Source: an uncultured Cellulophaga sp.
GTDB lineage: Bacteria > Bacteroidota > Bacteroidia > Flavobacteriales > Flavobacteriaceae
DNA: 64,000 bases
NCBI GenBank assembly: GCA_947492955.1
Contig: CANLOV010000005.1
Location: forward strand, 186,001 to 250,000
Direction: 5' to 3'
This document shows, one piece after another, positions 56,065 to 63,725 of this stretch (position 1 is the first letter of the stretch; each line of letters begins with the position of its first letter). Made by a program: the position numbers and the translations under genes. Below the pieces are notes generated by a model. That model was not told the DNA's origin, searched no databases, and worked only from the letters and a program-made list of their open reading frames with translations.

Positions 56065-57162
56065 TTAGTTAATTAATCTAAATTCAGTTCTTCTGTTAGC
56101 TGCGTGCTCTCTTTCTGTACAAGAAACACCATCTTTACATCTGTTCTTTAATTTAGCTTCTCCGTAACCATTAGCTACTAATAAACTAGAGTTAATTCCT
56201 TTTGTTTTTAAGTACTCTGCTACTGCTTGTGCTCTTCTTTCAGATAATGCTTGGTTAGCAGATGCGCTACCTCTAGAATCTGTATGAGAAGCTAATTCTA
56301 CCTTAACTCCTGGGTTTTGTTGTAATACAGGCATTAAACGAGTATCTATTAAATTCTTTGCTGCTGCTGTTAATGTTGCACTGTTTACATTCCAGCTTAT
56401 TGGTAAAGCTTGGTATTCTACTAAAGAACACTCAACCTCTTTCCAAGTTGTTAAACCACCTTTTTCTTTTAATACCTCTCTAGAGATAGTTTTTGTAACT
56501 GCTGGGATTGTTTCTTCTATAGTGTAAGCATCTTTATCTAATACTGTTTTAGTAATATCTTTATATTTTGCAGGGATTACTTCTTCTACAACTTTAGCAG
56601 GAGATAATAATACAGTTTTAGTATAAGTAGCATTTCTAGATCCTAATGGTGTCTTAGAGAAACTAGCATCTTTTGCTAATACTTGTGTTTGTATTGTTGT
56701 AAACTCTGCTGGGTATCCTTTGTAACACCAGTATCTACAATCATCTGGATTTCCAGAAGCACAATCTGGAGCAGGTGCTCCTAATTCCCACTGTGCGTAA
56801 GCTGGCTTAATTTCTAATGTCTCTGAACTTGTAGTAAAAGATGCAGGAGAAGTACTAATTGAATTTCCCCCTTCTTTAGATACATAAGTAACAGTTTCTG
56901 TTCCCCATTTTTCTGGAACAACTGTTAACCTTTTTCCTTCTGGCTTTACTAAAACATTTTCTGTAACCGTTTTAAATGTTGCAGGAACTGTTTTTAAGGT
57001 TTTATATGCAGGTTTTACAACGATAGATACAGTTTCGTTTACATATACATCTGGCGTAGTACAACGTACATAACATTTACCAGGTTGCGGGTTTGATGGC
57101 AAATCTTGTGCCATTGTAATTGATGCAGTCATTACTGCAAAAAAGAATAAAACTTTTTTCAT
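56065..57162 (-). CDS. OmpA-family outer-membrane protein
   Basis: 365 residues, signal peptide (KKVLFFFAVMTASITMAQ). The C-terminal 110 residues are an OmpA peptidoglycan-binding domain: VELASHTDSRGSASANQALSERRAQAV, then ANGYGEAKL and a final ANRRTEFRLIN. The N-terminal part is not a barrel but consists of repeats of the type VPATFKTVTENVLVKPE, YPAEFTTIQTQVLAKDA and IPAKYKDITKTVLDKDA, about four or five times. It carries paired cysteines (CYVRCTTP, CASGNPDDCRYWC). Such proteins anchor the envelope to peptidoglycan. The repeat fold is not known. Confidence 0.92.
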   Translation of the reverse strand: MKKVLFFFAVMTASITMAQDLPSNPQPGKCYVRCTTPDVYVNETVSIVVKPAYKTLKTVPATFKTVTENVLVKPEGKRLTVVPEKWGTETVTYVSKEGGNSISTSPASFTTSSETLEIKPAYAQWELGAPAPDCASGNPDDCRYWCYKGYPAEFTTIQTQVLAKDASFSKTPLGSRNATYTKTVLLSPAKVVEEVIPAKYKDITKTVLDKDAYTIEETIPAVTKTISREVLKEKGGLTTWKEVECSLVEYQALPISWNVNSATLTAAAKNLIDTRLMPVLQQNPGVKVELASHTDSRGSASANQALSERRAQAVAEYLKTKGINSSLLVANGYGEAKLKNRCKDGVSCTEREHAANRRTEFRLIN

Positions 57163-57734: not shown

Positions 57735-59252
57735 CTATTTTAAATATTTAAACATTGTTTTTAATAAAACATCATGATCAAAAGGTTTAGGAACAACAGC
57801 ATTCATACCTGCTTTTAAATACGCTTTTATATCATCTTCATAAGCATTAGCTGTAAGACCTATAATAGGAATTTTTTTAATATTTTTAAATGGAAATTCT
57901 CTAATGGCATGGGTAATTTTATCGCCAGATAAATTAGGTAAGTTAATATCCATTAATATTATATCGTAACTATTATTAACTAGTTCTTCTATTACTTTTG
58001 CTCCATCATTAATTAAATCTACAAAAAATACTTCTGTGTTTATCAATATTTTAAATAAGGTGGTTTGTAAATGAATATCATCTTCTACCAATAACACTTT
58101 AAATTTTCCTTCTTCTTTATGCTTGTATTTTTTTTCTTTTATATCTGGCTTTATAGTGGGGTGTAATGGATATTTTAATACGATATCAAAGTAAAAAGTA
58201 GAGCCTCTATTTAATTTAGAATGTACTTTAATGTCACTTTCCATTTGTTGCAATAAGCCTTTAACAATAGCTAAACCTAAACCATTGCCGTTTTGTTGCT
58301 CGGCAGTTTTTAATTGTGTAAAGCTATTAAAAACGGTAGCTAATTTTTCCTGAGGGATACCAATCCCTGTGTCGGAAATTTTAAAACGAAGGCTAACTTT
58401 GTTGGCTCTTTTTTGATTTAACTCAATATTAAAATTAATACTGCCGTCTTGAGTGTATTTAAAGGCGTTGTCTAATAGATTTGTTAATATTTGATAAATC
58501 CTTAAATAATCTCCTTCTACATATTCAGGAATTTTAATATCGGATGTTAAAGTAAATTCTAATCCTTTTTCTTTTGCTTTGGCACCATATGTAAATCGTA
58601 GTAAATTAAATAACTCATAAATATTAAACTCTTTATTTCGTAATTGTAATTTTCCCGAAGCAATCATACTAATGCTTAAAATATCTTCTAGCATTAATTT
58701 TAGATTGGCGTTAGACTCTCTAAGAAAATTAATCATATTTTTTTGCTCTCCTGTTAATTCGGTATTAGCAATAATGTTAGTAATAGAAATGATGTTGGTA
58801 AGTGGATTTCTTAATTCGTGGCTAAAATTTTGAATAAAGGAATTTTTGAAACGTTCTCTTTCTTCTAATTCACTGTTTTTAAGTATAATTAATTCTCCGT
58901 TAATGATTGATTCATTTCTGGATTGAGCGATGCTTTGATAGGTTAAATAATGTTGTGTTAAATTGTGTAAAACAAGAAGTATACCGTCTATTTTCTTTAT
59001 AATTTTTATATCTGTGGTATATTCTTTATCATGAATATTAAGATGTACACAATTAAAAGTTGTTTCTTCTTCTGGAGTGTTTTCTAATGCATGCAAACAT
59101 TCGAAAAAAGGATGAGTATTATATATAAAATCTCCAATAGTTAGTTTTAAAAAAGCCTGATCGCTTTCTAAAATAACTCTGCTATCATTAACAAAAACAA
59201 ACTGAATGTCGTTGTTAGTATACGATTTTTTGTATTTGTTAAGTAGCTCCAT
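57735..59252 (-). CDS. Soluble hybrid histidine kinase (PAS-like sensor, kinase, receiver)
   Basis: 505 residues with no signal peptide or membrane segment. The first 120 residues are a PAS-like domain (FVFVNDSRVILESDQAFLKL). Then come HisKA with the phospho-His in FSHELRNPLTNII, HATPase (DTGIGIPQEKLATVF, GNGLGLAIVKGL) and a C-terminal receiver with the aspartate in IILMDINLPNLSGDK. No DNA-binding domain follows, so the output should be a phosphorelay or protein contact. It is the last gene of the operon and its start overlaps the GTPase stop by 14 bases, a strong sign of coupled expression. Confidence 0.92.
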   Translation of the reverse strand: MELLNKYKKSYTNNDIQFVFVNDSRVILESDQAFLKLTIGDFIYNTHPFFECLHALENTPEEETTFNCVHLNIHDKEYTTDIKIIKKIDGILLVLHNLTQHYLTYQSIAQSRNESIINGELIILKNSELEERERFKNSFIQNFSHELRNPLTNIISITNIIANTELTGEQKNMINFLRESNANLKLMLEDILSISMIASGKLQLRNKEFNIYELFNLLRFTYGAKAKEKGLEFTLTSDIKIPEYVEGDYLRIYQILTNLLDNAFKYTQDGSINFNIELNQKRANKVSLRFKISDTGIGIPQEKLATVFNSFTQLKTAEQQNGNGLGLAIVKGLLQQMESDIKVHSKLNRGSTFYFDIVLKYPLHPTIKPDIKEKKYKHKEEGKFKVLLVEDDIHLQTTLFKILINTEVFFVDLINDGAKVIEELVNNSYDIILMDINLPNLSGDKITHAIREFPFKNIKKIPIIGLTANAYEDDIKAYLKAGMNAVVPKPFDHDVLLKTMFKYLK

Positions 59253-59736
59253 TTAATTGGTTTACTAGTTTAAGAAATACATCATTAACAGCATCACCTG
59301 TTTTAGCACTTGTTAAAAAATCGGTAGAAATTTGATTTTTGTTTAATAGTTCTTCTAGTTCTTTTATAACTACTAAATCTGTTTTGTTGCCAATTACTAA
59401 AAGAGGAATGTTGGGTAATTTTTCTGTGACAATTTTTAAGTCAGTATTTATATTTTGAAATGTAGAAGGCCTAGTAACATCAAAAACAAATATAACACCA
59501 TGAGTGCCCAAGAGATAGGAATTACGTATGGTTTCTAAATCATCGGTGCCTTCTAGATCCCAAAGAATTAAAGACATGGAATCACCAGCTGCTATCTCTA
59601 CTACTTTTTTGGTAATATGTACGCCTATAGATACTTTATAGTTATCGGAGAAACTATCCTCTACAAACCTTCTTATTAAAGATGTTTTTCCTACTCCAAA
59701 ATGTCCTAGAATAACAATTTTTTTAGATGTCTGCAT
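59239..59736 (-). CDS. Rab-like small GTPase
   Basis: 165 residues, cytoplasmic. Ras-superfamily motifs are complete: P-loop GHFGVGKTS (11-19), switch I YKVSIGVHI, G3 WDLEG (59-63), G4 NKTD (117-120), G5 SAK (143-145). The order and spacing follow Rab/MglA-type proteins. The residue after DxxG, a catalytic glutamine in Ras/Rab, is threonine (Thr64), so intrinsic hydrolysis may be slow and depend on a partner. Prokaryotic small GTPases of this class often work with roadblock-type regulators; one lies just upstream. The start overlaps the previous gene by 14 bases. Confidence 0.9.
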   Translation of the reverse strand: MQTSKKIVILGHFGVGKTSLIRRFVEDSFSDNYKVSIGVHITKKVVEIAAGDSMSLILWDLEGTDDLETIRNSYLLGTHGVIFVFDVTRPSTFQNINTDLKIVTEKLPNIPLLVIGNKTDLVVIKELEELLNKNQISTDFLTSAKTGDAVNDVFLKLVNQLNGAT

Positions 59737-60535
59737 TATTAAAATTTTGTGCTAATTCTTTTTCTATTACGTCTTTATTAAGTGTTTTAGATTTTTTTAT
59801 GTCCATAAATTGATCATAAAAATTAAAAATTAGGTCTTGCACTTTGTTTTTTGATGTTAAAGTATAATTTCCCGATATAATTACGGCAATATAATAATTT
59901 ATAAAACTTTGCAGATGTATTTGATACAATTCATACTCTATTAACTCTAAGTTCTGATTTTTTTGATTAAAAGCATCTTCAACGAAAGTTTTAATAGCTG
60001 TTAGCATACCAGAAATCATTTCCTGGTCCATAGTATCTGTTTTGGAATAGCTAGCAGTTAAAATACCAGAATTTTTTTCTATTAATAAAACTTGCTCTAT
60101 GCTGGCAGATGATAATTCACTTAAGATAAGTTCTTCTTCTTTAATACCACCAAACCAAGATTTAAATTTTCTTTTCCAACCTTTAGTAGATAATTGGTTA
60201 TTAATTTTTTCTGAGAGTAATTTTATTTCTTGAGCAATGTACTTTTTAATCATTTTACCCAAAATAGGAAATAAAGCATCTACAATTTCGTCTTTATTTT
60301 TTTTAATTTCTTCTTTTAAAGTCGCTGTAATTGTTGGGCCTAAAGAAGTTGGGATGCTTTTAGTAAATTCTTTTAATTGATTTTCTACAATAGGGCTAAC
60401 TTTTGTAGTTAATTTTTTTTGCTCATTAATAGTCTGTTCTAGTATAGCAATTCTTTTGGCAATTTTTTCTGCATATTCACGGTCGTCTGTAAATAAGATG
60501 TCTTTTAAAATTTCTAACTTGTCCTTTTCATTCAT
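59723..60535 (-). CDS. Helical protein with roadblock/longin-like domain
   Basis: 270 residues, no signal peptide. The N-terminal 120 residues are long charged helices (LKDILFTDDREYAEKIAKRI, likely coiled coil). Residues about 140-245 look like a roadblock/LC7 or longin-type alpha/beta domain: ASIEQVLLIEKNSGILTASY, then MDQEMISGMLTAIKTFVEDAF and INYYIAVIISGNYTL. This fold regulates small GTPases in the MglA/MglB pair, so this protein may act on the GTPase encoded next. Assignment is by pattern only. The start motif LKDILFTDD recalls the small coiled-coil protein upstream (IKNLIFGDN). Stop and GTPase start overlap by 14 bases. Confidence 0.75.
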   Translation of the reverse strand: MNEKDKLEILKDILFTDDREYAEKIAKRIAILEQTINEQKKLTTKVSPIVENQLKEFTKSIPTSLGPTITATLKEEIKKNKDEIVDALFPILGKMIKKYIAQEIKLLSEKINNQLSTKGWKRKFKSWFGGIKEEELILSELSSASIEQVLLIEKNSGILTASYSKTDTMDQEMISGMLTAIKTFVEDAFNQKNQNLELIEYELYQIHLQSFINYYIAVIISGNYTLTSKNKVQDLIFNFYDQFMDIKKSKTLNKDVIEKELAQNFNNADI

Positions 60536-60557
60536 ATTTGTTAGAATTTAGAAAAGA

Positions 60558-60917
60558 CTATTTGTTATTTACCTTTTCGCCAAGCTCAATTAATAAATCG
60601 CCAAGCATTTTTTTATTTACTTTAGCAGTATCTATATCTTCTAGTTTGTTTTCTAGATTTTCTTCTAGTTCAGTAATTCTAATATTTACATCTGTGGCTA
60701 CATTATCTATCGCCGTTTTTAAATCTGCTTTAACATCTTCTATTAGTTCTTCTAGAACTTTTTTCTTGTCAAGAATGTCTTGTTTAAGTAATTCAAATTC
60801 GGAATCGTAAGCTTGAATATTATCGCCGAAAATTAAATTTTTAATTACATCAATTTTTGATGCTGCATCATCTTCCTTTGTATTTAAATCTATGACACGT
60901 TTATTGTTTTTAGACAT
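60558..60917 (-). CDS. Small coiled-coil protein, first gene of GTPase operon
   Basis: ATG 60917 gives MSKNNKRVIDL, 120 residues; the longer reading to 60962 would overlap the -7 box. Most of the protein is charged helix (KQDILDKKKVLEELIEDVKADLK, then ITELEENLENKLEDIDTAKV), a probable coiled coil. The string IKNLIFGDNIQAYD matches the N-terminal LKDILFTDDREYA of the next protein, which suggests related docking elements. It has no known family. It is 22 bp ahead of the roadblock-like gene and leads the operon. Confidence 0.75.
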   Translation of the reverse strand: MSKNNKRVIDLNTKEDDAASKIDVIKNLIFGDNIQAYDSEFELLKQDILDKKKVLEELIEDVKADLKTAIDNVATDVNIRITELEENLENKLEDIDTAKVNKKMLGDLLIELGEKVNNK

Positions 60918-60951
60918 TGTTGTTTGCGTTATGGTTATGTGTTGTTTAATA

Positions 60952-60988
60952 CAAAAATACATTAATATTTACCTTAAAATAAGGTAAA
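60952..60988 (-). promoter_or_regulatory. Promoter of GTPase operon with overlapping palindrome
   Basis: TATTTTTG on the minus strand (60959-60952) is a full -7 match, 35 bp before the start. Next to it lies TTTACCTTA-TTT-TAAGGTAAA (60988-60968), a perfect 9-bp inverted repeat that overlaps the -33 region. A repressor or activator site is likely; no -33 box is evident. Confidence 0.5.
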
Positions 60989-61112: not shown

Positions 61113-61116
61113 AAAG

Positions 61117-61160
61117 CTCCCCCTCTTGGGCTCGAACCAAGGACCCTCTGATTAACAGTC
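61117..61160 (-). repeat. tRNA-Asn 3' fragment, left attachment site of an integrative element
   Basis: On the minus strand the 44 bases run from the anticodon loop (GACTGTTAATC, anticodon GUU) through the T arm (CTTGG-TTCGAGC-CCAAG) and the 3' acceptor strand AGGGGGA to the discriminator G. The 5' half (acceptor 5' strand, D arm) is missing: the upstream bases turn into unrelated AT-rich DNA. This is the usual scar of integration into a tRNA gene. The rebuilt intact tRNA would lie at the other end of the element, beyond the right edge. Confidence 0.85.
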
Positions 61161-61305: not shown

Positions 61306-61782
61306 CTACATTAATTTCTTCTTCATAGCAATCCCTGTATTTCCATCTTTCTTGACCAACAACTCTATAACTGTATTTGAATCTAAATGACAGGTTGCCC
61401 TGTAAGCTAAAAATGGGTCTATTACCATTTTATTTTTACTTGGTAATCTTTTATTTGTTTGCTTTAATAAATACTCAAAATGATTTCCTTGAAACCTGTA
61501 ATAAACAGCACTCAAAATATCAGCATTAAATAGCAATACAATTCCTCTTGAAATAGGTAAATCAAATAGCATTTTAAAATCACCCTTTTCATATAGGTAA
61601 ATTTCATAACAGATATCATTTACTATTTTCTCTCCTTTAGATTTTAAATCAAACTCATAATTTTCATATTGCTCACCAATTGTAAATCTAAGTTGCTTTA
61701 AAAGTCTCTTTTCACTTCTAAAAATACCTGTAACTAAAAAAAGCCACCTTTTTAGATGGCTTATTAACTTATATTTTGTCAT
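61306..61782 (-). CDS. Hypothetical protein in integrative element
   Basis: ATG 61782 (MTKYKLISHLKRWLFLVTG) is preferred; a GTG at 61803 would overlap the previous gene. About 158 residues, with an N-terminal hydrophobic helix region and a globular remainder (FYEIYLYEKGDFKMLFDLPI-like). No family is recognised. It lies 7 bp after the lipoprotein gene and is probably co-transcribed with it. Confidence 0.6.
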   Translation of the reverse strand: MTKYKLISHLKRWLFLVTGIFRSEKRLLKQLRFTIGEQYENYEFDLKSKGEKIVNDICYEIYLYEKGDFKMLFDLPISRGIVLLFNADILSAVYYRFQGNHFEYLLKQTNKRLPSKNKMVIDPFLAYRATCHLDSNTVIELLVKKDGNTGIAMKKKLM

Positions 61783-61789
61783 TTGATTT

Positions 61790-62200
61790 TTAAAAATTAT
61801 CACAATTAAAGCTTCTTAAAGAGGATATAAATTCACTCATCTGTTTTCCTATTTCACCTTTATCTACAAGAAGTCCTACAACTTCTCCATTACACTTAGC
61901 AAATATTTTATATCTAAATATAGGTGTTGGTGATGAATCTATAATTTCAGCAGATATTATACTTGCATCCTCTTTTGTAAAATCTACAGATATAGATGAT
62001 GAATTTGTAACACTGAAAGTTTCTGAAATATCCTCACTATTCATTTTTAAGTGAATTTTTATTTCTTGAAGTTCTTCTGAAGCATTTAACTCTAAAGTGT
62101 ATGTGTTTAAATTGATTGTTTCCTCATCGCTATTACTATCATCATCGGAACAAGATAATAATGTGAAAAACGCTATTAGTATTAAATATATATGTTTCAT
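61790..62200 (-). CDS. Small lipoprotein in integrative element
   Basis: 136 residues; lipobox LIAFFTLLSCSDDD (Cys17) followed by a run of acidic residues, a common surface-export signal in Flavobacteriaceae. The mature part is beta-rich (LNTYTLELNASEELQEIKIHL). No family is recognised. It starts 4 bp after the stop of the 62205 gene. Confidence 0.65.
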   Translation of the reverse strand: MKHIYLILIAFFTLLSCSDDDSNSDEETINLNTYTLELNASEELQEIKIHLKMNSEDISETFSVTNSSSISVDFTKEDASIISAEIIDSSPTPIFRYKIFAKCNGEVVGLLVDKGEIGKQMSEFISSLRSFNCDNF

Positions 62201-62204
62201 AAGA

Positions 62205-62774
62205 TTAGTTATTATAAGGTTTAAGTAAAATTTCTTTTGTGGGCTTGTTTATTGAAGTAATTAGAGTATTTATAGTACTCCCTATAAAGTTTGTTTTATC
62301 AATTTCATCAAATGCTAATTTTCCTGAATATTGAAAGGCATATAACCTACCTCTTTTATAAGATTGCATTCTTTCTTTTAGAGGTAAATTCAAATCATCA
62401 GGTAATAGAAGTATTAAGTCTAAATATTCATCTTTGACATTAATAACGTAAGCTTCAACACACCAGTTGTATTTAAATGCTGTTTCTATACTATCCCAAA
62501 TCAATGAATCTAAATCAGGTGCTAATTCGTCTTTACTGTTAGGCTGCTTAACTACCTTATTAATTGAATTTTCTTTAAAATCAGAATCTTTCAAAACAGT
62601 CTTTATGTTATTTGTCTTATTATCCTTTTCTTGGTTGCGTTCTTGTTTACTGTGATTTAACATCTTAAAAAAGAAATAAATACAAACAAAGTAGAATAAC
62701 CATCTAATTACTCTACCTAATTCATAATCTGATAACGGTTCTTGTGGCTCTATATATAAAATAAGCTCTAACAT
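62205..62774 (-). CDS. Membrane-anchored hypothetical protein in integrative element
   Basis: 189 residues with one membrane segment near the start (IRWLFYFVCIYFFFKML), then a long charged linker and a globular C-terminal domain (DSIETAFKYNWCVEAYVINV, LLPDDLNLPLKERMQSYKRGRLYAF). No family is recognised. It is divergent from the XRE gene, and the operator copies lie between them. It probably leads a three-gene operon with the lipoprotein and the 61306 gene. Confidence 0.65.
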   Translation of the reverse strand: MLELILYIEPQEPLSDYELGRVIRWLFYFVCIYFFFKMLNHSKQERNQEKDNKTNNIKTVLKDSDFKENSINKVVKQPNSKDELAPDLDSLIWDSIETAFKYNWCVEAYVINVKDEYLDLILLLPDDLNLPLKERMQSYKRGRLYAFQYSGKLAFDEIDKTNFIGSTINTLITSINKPTKEILLKPYNN

Positions 62775-63290: not shown

Positions 63291-63725
63291 CTACATAATT
63301 CCTTCATCATTAAAACTGTAAAAGCCATCTTTAGTAATAACTAAGTGGTCTAAAACAGCAACATCTAAATATTCTCCTGCTTTTTTAAGTTTGTTAGTCA
63401 TTATTTTATCAGCTTCACTAATTTTTAAGCTACCACTTGGGTGGTTGTGTGCTACAATAATACCTTTTGCATTACATTTTAAAGCTACAGAAAACACCAA
63501 TTTAGCATCTACATTTACACCAGAACTTCCTCCTTTGGCTAATGGATAAATTCCTAATACTTGATTAGTATTGTTTAATAATAATACTTTAAATTCTTCC
63601 TGTAATTCTATAGTATGTTTATTCCAACAAGCTAATAGTAAATCATAAGACATTTTACTGTTGGTTATTTTTAATCGTTTCTTATTATTGTTGGTGTAAG
63701 AAACTTTAATTTCTGCTATTTCCAT
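63291..63725 (-). CDS. radC: RadC-like JAB-domain protein
   Basis: 144 residues. The JAMM metal motif is complete: AHNHPSGSLKISEAD, with the two histidines and the aspartate, followed by LVITKDGFYSFNDEG. The protein covers only the C-terminal catalytic part of chromosomal RadC; short versions like this are common on mobile elements, where their role is unknown (a DNA repair role is not supported). The gene is convergent with XRE; the gap of 200 bp holds no gene. Confidence 0.88.
   Translation of the reverse strand: MEIAEIKVSYTNNNKKRLKITNSKMSYDLLLACWNKHTIELQEEFKVLLLNNTNQVLGIYPLAKGGSSGVNVDAKLVFSVALKCNAKGIIVAHNHPSGSLKISEADKIMTNKLKKAGEYLDVAVLDHLVITKDGFYSFNDEGIM

Follow-up and report, generated by a model that had tools for sequence, protein, structure and literature searches.

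We analyzed an operon of four open reading frames (ORFs) on the minus strand, from 60917 to 57735, in a stretch of 64,000 nucleotides from an uncultured Cellulophaga sp. (contig CANLOV010000005.1), called the window here. The genes encode, in order, a coiled-coil protein, a protein of 270 amino acids (aa), a Ras/Rab-like GTPase, and a soluble hybrid histidine kinase. The operon is a member of the Group 1 Rup neighborhoods, a kind of gene set described before (Wuichet and Søgaard-Andersen 2014, PMC4316618), and it shows all the features of these neighborhoods that were tested. What is new here is the probable identity of an unnamed partner domain of the Group 1 Rup neighborhoods, which is likely a roadblock/longin domain.

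When a public genome collection was scanned with the GTPase as query, 36 related loci were obtained. All 36 carry the four genes on one strand and in identical order, and since this arrangement is kept at a GTPase identity of 57 to 80%, the gene set is conserved beyond chance. Nearly all loci are titled Flavobacteriaceae, Flavobacteriales, or with genera that we take to belong there; the exceptions by record title are L006, named only as a Bacteroidia bacterium, and L030, a Cytophaga sp. Three ORFs are incomplete, that of the GTPase in L010 and those of the kinase in L018 and L033. Our alignments, each of which includes the window, hold 30 (A1 and A2), 29 (A3), or 26 (A4) of the 36 loci. A sequence-only reading of this DNA had placed here four minus-strand genes with 14-base overlaps, forming one signaling unit. 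The ORF positions bear out the layout, and the gene order, which that reading had proposed to check, was kept in 36/36 loci, which supports a conserved unit.

Gene 1 (60558 to 60917), the first gene in all 36 loci, encodes a soluble, probably coiled-coil protein of 119 aa (alignment A4). Its longest ORF begins at 60962; we consider 60917 the better start because conservation sets in at the equivalent of this position and because 31 of the 36 related ORFs encode 117 to 123 aa. The coiled coil was judged by eye, a hydropathy scan found no hydrophobic segment, and the Pfam matches were weak ones only, under the cut-off. Homology of gene 1 to the N terminus of gene 2 was also considered and is unsupported (hhalign match of 15 columns, probability 0.7%). 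Gene 2 (59723 to 60535) and gene 3 (59239 to 59736) overlap by 14 bases (59723 to 59736), and the overlap is exactly 14 bases in all 29 loci measured out of the 36 fetched, a constancy that fits translational coupling of two partners. Gene 3 and gene 4 (57735 to 59252) likewise overlap by 14 bases in the window (59239 to 59252); this overlap is variable elsewhere, with 8 bases in 10 of the 18 loci tallied. For these tallies, the starts of the GTPase and the kinase were picked by homology.

The product of gene 3 is a Group 1 Rup small GTPase of 165 aa (Pfam Ras, E = 1.4e-31), and its genome yields no second one of this kind at E ≤ 0.001. The GTPase motifs GHFGVGKT, WDLEG, NKTD, and SAK were all found, and a profile search of solved structures ranked Sec4, Rab35, and Rab1 nearest. 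At the position of the catalytic Gln, the G3 motif WDLEGTDD (59539 to 59562, minus strand) carries Thr64, as do 30/30 aligned GTPases, and the G3 Gln is absent from 17/17 Rups of the distant loci described below. Asp60 of WDLEG is invariant in the same 30 GTPases. MglB is the roadblock partner that controls the nucleotide state of the small GTPase MglA, and we take the position of Thr78 in MglA to be that of the G3 Asp. According to the available part of PMC3000849, Thr78 replaces a highly conserved residue in the MglA family. The GTPase of the window, which retains Asp60, fits Rup by its context and not the MglA family; the MglA type to which the sequence-only reading had pointed is not supported.

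Group 1 Rup GTPases have been described in Bacteroidetes, Chloroflexi, Cyanobacteria, and Gammaproteobacteria; they lack the G3 glutamine, and Rup stands for GTPases uncoupled from MglB homologues (PMC4316618). In the available text of that report, their neighbors are a coiled-coil protein, a protein with an unknown domain that often precedes a transmembrane helix and OmpA, and an output protein with a conserved N-terminal Gln, and none of the Rup GTPases had been experimentally characterized as of 2014. No later experimental test was found among the literature matches listed. The window shares with this description a GTPase of the Ras superfamily that has eukaryote-like G motifs and no G3 Gln, a coiled-coil partner, an unknown-domain partner, and an output with an N-terminal Gln, so that the gene set, which the sequence-only reading could not assign to any described system, does have a published counterpart. 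It differs from it in that gene 2 is without the optional transmembrane/OmpA part and in that the unknown domain of 2014 is read here as roadblock/longin. In addition, sigma-54 activators and class III cyclases occur as outputs beyond those named in the available text. Judging from context, the domain of gene 2 would be the unknown domain of PMC4316618 and Gln110 of the kinase would be its conserved Gln.

Gene 2 encodes a helical N-terminal half followed by a C-terminal half in which residues 133 to 249 (59789 to 60139, minus strand) probably form a diverged roadblock/longin domain; we regard the evidence, which comes from a structural model, Foldseek, and hhalign, as good, not final. In the AlphaFold2 model, built from 31 sequences, the C-terminal half follows the order H-E-E-H-E-E-E-H, which is the roadblock order α-ββ-α-βββ-α, and then has an extra helix. 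The 50 best of 690 Foldseek matches (E ≤ 10) were all roadblock/longin proteins or complexes holding them, and the matches listed include zeta-COP, AP sigma chains, Rag complexes, LAMTOR, Mon1-Ccz1, Asgard roadblocks, and MglB, several of these chain identities being ones that we presume from general knowledge. As a control, the N terminus of the kinase was run likewise and matched mostly PAS/LOV proteins, with 2 dynein-complex chains and 3 rows of uncharacterized proteins among 50.

Of the profile comparisons, the one by hhalign points in the same direction. When alignment A6, with 21 diverse sequences of the domain, was compared by hhalign with 18 Robl_LC7 proteins, it gave a P value of 7e-5 and a probability of 63% over 111 columns, first helix included; the 18 proteins, several of them nearly alike, represent 18 of 20 roadblock loci of the same phylum, two of irregular length having been dropped. 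The flavobacterial alignment A1 alone gave a P value of 1.8e-4 against the Robl_LC7 proteins, and three control comparisons gave 0.2, 0.43, and 0.59. In this comparison, the hallmark D-x-DMVSGMLTAI of the gene 2 family falls on the roadblock segment D-x-x-x-V-x-AM-x-AA. At cut-off, gene 2 matches no Pfam family, and the commonest weak family matches 11 of the 31 aligned members. The roadblock/longin-like domain that the sequence-only reading had seen in 59723 to 60535 is thus probable, and the structure check that it had suggested, done with the model and Foldseek, returned this topology.

With MglA/MglB of Myxococcus xanthus, the operon has in common a small GTPase and a roadblock-fold partner, MglB structures being among the Foldseek matches of gene 2. 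It differs in that the domain is too diverged for Pfam Robl_LC7 and in that a hybrid kinase belongs to the operon; no MglB homologue is recognizable by sequence, as judged from Robl_LC7 in gene 2 and in its own genome. A separate Robl_LC7 protein occurs in some genomes of the same family (L103-L108). No genome is common to the positive lists of the gene 2 family and of Robl_LC7, which come from two different genome samples.

Gene 4 encodes the soluble hybrid kinase, with HisKA (residues 136 to 200), HATPase_c (247 to 357), and a receiver (386 to 499) found by Pfam; His145 and Asp435 are invariant in alignment A2. As the sequence-only reading had stated, no segment of the kinase is strongly hydrophobic (its 19-residue Kyte-Doolittle means peak at 1.16), and a Pfam scan found no DNA-binding domain. 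AlphaFold2 predicts a PAS-like fold for residues 1 to 98 (58959 to 59252) with a mean predicted local distance difference test score (pLDDT) of 86.6, and Foldseek matched them mostly to PAS/LOV proteins, with one match at E ≤ 0.001. Because none of the 31 kinase N termini matches Pfam PAS, we interpret this predicted fold as a diverged PAS-like domain. Gln110 (58923 to 58925) is placed by the predicted structure on the long helix behind this domain, near the start of the helix that joins it to the kinase core, and is invariant in 31/31 kinases of the near set.

More distant relatives were then compared. A profile of gene 2 matched 13 of 395 genomes sampled across the phylum, its own included. 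The neighbors were examined at 18 distant loci, which are three plasmid records of Nostoc, Rhizobium, and Mesorhizobium plus 15 regions from 14 genomes; the gene 2-positive genomes G028, G191, and G092 and nine congeners were left out of this examination. The loci are not independent, as L039 and L040 are near copies, L065 and L066 belong to one genus, and L069 and L078 to one genome. A Rup gene is present in 17 of the 18 loci, and in the genome of L068 it lies on another contig. The gene 1 profile matched in 16 of the 18 loci, in some of them weakly. In 13 of the 18, gene 2 has a long form, in which the roadblock-like domain is followed by a hydrophobic segment, and in 5 it is short as in the window; OmpA was found in all 8 long homologues scanned. 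In the genome of L069 and L078 (G310), gene 2, Rup, and kinase occur twice, the two sets lying on separate contigs. In the gene 2 homologues of L038, L065, and L066, the helical part before the roadblock-like domain seems by eye to contain a repeat of about 25 residues, with a higher copy number than in the protein of the window.

Of the 17 distant outputs, 12 are histidine kinases, 3 are sigma-54 activators, and 2 are class III cyclases. Pfam scans typed seven of them and, in addition, one cyclase, and the others were assigned by profile or alignment. The N-terminal regions of these outputs align. In an alignment of 23 output N termini, made from 6 of the 31 near-set outputs (window included) and the 17 distant ones, with three trimmed at the start by hand, Gln110 is the only fully invariant column (23/23). 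Since kinases, sigma-54 activators, and class III cyclases beside Rup all carry the PAS-like domain, it is this domain and not the enzyme type that goes with Rup. Of five distant kinases that were scanned, two (L038 and L064) have an Hpt domain of their own. In the genome of the window there are three Hpt matches, one in a short, 113-aa ORF on a different contig and two in longer ORFs.

We consider it reasonably likely that the operon is a Group 1 Rup system in which the roadblock protein sets the state of the GTPase and the GTPase gates the kinase via its PAS-like domain. Our strongest argument is that the PAS-like domain is retained across outputs with different enzyme parts, and we judge gating through it likeliest for this reason. 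The operon would be a short form of the Group 1 Rup system, without the OmpA anchor. The gene set and its order, the Pfam domains, the lack of the G3 glutamine, and the conservation of Gln110 are observed, and the roadblock and PAS-like folds are backed by prediction; binding, signal direction, the role of Gln110, the phosphorelay, and the physiological output are what we infer. The predicted roadblock domain of gene 2 would dimerize, bind the Rup GTPase, and control its nucleotide state as MglB does for MglA, while the helical N-terminal half of gene 2 and the coiled-coil protein might gather or relay input. The GTPase in its GTP form, without a catalytic Gln of its own, would then dock on the predicted PAS-like domain of the kinase, where contact near Gln110 on the connecting helix could switch autophosphorylation of His145. 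From His145 the phosphate would pass to Asp435 of the receiver and probably on to a separate Hpt protein.

Several points weigh against this reading. The gene 2 model is weak, with a mean pLDDT of 62.7 (51 to 52 in the other four models), and in residues 133 to 249 the ten-residue means range from 49 to 89, residues 133 to 140 being under 50; because the first helix lies partly under 50, the model alone cannot separate roadblock from longin. The 50 listed Foldseek matches have E values from 1.8e-4 to 1e-2, five of them at ≤ 0.001, and their TM-scores do not exceed 0.35 when scaled by query length or 0.62 when scaled by target length. We also looked for proof of a roadblock directly in the sequence, with Pfam and with a profile search of solved structures, and both were negative: Robl_LC7 was found neither in the gene 2 protein nor in its 30 aligned relatives nor in its own genome, and the structure search with gene 2 gave nothing significant, two unrelated YopH chains (E = 0.45 and 0.47) ranking above TRAPP BET5 (E = 1.3). 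In the distant kinases, the strict motif Q-x-R-[NEDV] occurs in 7 of 12, and the invariance of Gln110 in five rests on the alignment register, because neighboring residues were shifted to keep the Gln. The gene 2 homologue and the Rup gene lie on separate contigs in G188 and G092, and gene 2 is on the strand opposite to Rup and output in 4 of the 18 distant loci (L069, L070, L072, and L078).

The missing glutamine would also suit a different division of labor, in which the roadblock-like protein is only a scaffold, comparable to Ragulator/LAMTOR, and the PAS-like domain with Gln110 is the GTPase-activating element, so that the effector, by supplying its Gln in trans, switches itself off. The absence of the G3 glutamine in 30/30 near and 17/17 distant Rups and the invariance of Gln110 in 23/23 outputs of three enzyme types speak for this explanation, as do the LAMTOR and Rag structures among the listed Foldseek matches of gene 2. 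In the available part of the 2014 report, a trans-supplied glutamine was raised and the conserved output Gln was noted (PMC4316618). Gln110, however, sits on a linker helix, and a polar residue conserved at such a place could function in transmitting the signal; the alignment of Gln110 is register dependent in 5 of the 12 distant kinases. We regard this explanation as unlikely, if far from negligible.

The signal might also run in the other direction, with the GTPase downstream of the kinase and its PAS-like input and acting on an unlinked target, in polarity or the envelope, and with the roadblock protein as its GTPase-activating protein or guanine nucleotide exchange factor; both the sequence-only reading and the analogy to the conservon point this way. 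The actinobacterial conservon (CvnA-D) offers a parallel, since it likewise unites a histidine kinase, a roadblock protein, a small GTPase, and a fourth protein in one operon. As described in the available part of PMC4316618, conservons have a membrane-spanning kinase, an MglA-family GTPase, and no response regulator, and the GTPase was proposed as the output. The hydrophobic segment in 13 of the 18 distant gene 2 homologues, with OmpA in 8/8 of those scanned, would fit an envelope role. In contrast to the conservon, the kinase of the window is soluble and hybrid, and so carries its own receiver, and the GTPase is a Rup. Moreover, the fourth gene varies in its enzyme while the N-terminal domain stays, which looks like a series of exchangeable outputs of one GTPase. 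A GTPase acting downstream of the kinase is quite improbable in our view.

The sequence-only reading had also suggested a role in gliding. GldJ was found in 59 of 60 genomes, in 53 of them over the cut-off, versus 15 of the same 60 for the gene 2 family, own genome included. This distribution of GldJ does not follow the module, and a core gliding role was rejected. Because the module is patchy within the genus (9/17 congeners) while GldJ is over the cut-off in 17/17 congeners, we view it as an accessory regulator and not as part of the core gliding machinery. The GldJ comparison excludes a core part in gliding, not an accessory influence.

Upstream of the operon, the palindrome TTTACCTTATTTTAAGGTAAA (60968 to 60988, minus strand) has 9-base arms and a 3-base loop, and a TAnnTTTG box (60952 to 60959, minus strand) was found as a consensus match only; we liken it to the -7 box of Bacteroidota promoters. 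The sequence-only reading had proposed a promoter with a palindrome, and both elements do exist. No perfect copy of the palindrome was found upstream of 34 relatives (34 of the 36 loci were checked and imperfect copies were not sought), for which reason we rejected it as a conserved operator; one relative among the 34 has upstream arms equally long, of different sequence. A neighboring OmpA protein (56065 to 57162) was considered as a split-off anchor of the system and rejected, as it has a match in only 1 of the 36 loci (L003; flanks of at most about 6 kb, some contigs being shorter).

Just upstream of the operon lies a 47-base copy of the 3' end of tRNA-Asn (61114 to 61160). It is a 3' fragment only, ARAGORN finding no tRNA gene there, and an isolated tRNA gene beside the operon was thus rejected. 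About 23 kb away (G000:C5:270268-270296), the same bases occur in an intact tRNA-Asn with anticodon gtt. The fragment and the intact copy seem to mark both ends of an integrated element that borders directly on the operon. Inside this presumed element are a RadC-like protein, named by eye (63291 to 63725, minus strand), and small ORFs without assigned function (61306 to 62774).

The Group 1 Rup system may represent a general G-protein cassette, in which a roadblock platform loads a Rab-like GTPase for exchangeable enzymes via a PAS-like receptor, and in which the invariant Gln completes the active site of the GTPase, the effector thereby terminating its own activation. We hold this wider proposal to be distinctly unlikely as a whole. 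If it were true, OmpA would anchor the platform to peptidoglycan in many lineages, the flavobacterial platforms would be free, and the enzymes served would be histidine kinases, sigma-54 activators, class III nucleotide cyclases, and cyclic di-GMP (c-di-GMP) enzymes, the last being among the Rup-associated outputs in the available part of the 2014 report (PMC4316618). The short four-gene version is small enough for reconstitution and testing. If the partner domain is a diverged roadblock, the pairing of a GTPase with a roadblock protein would span both bacterial families and may predate their split.

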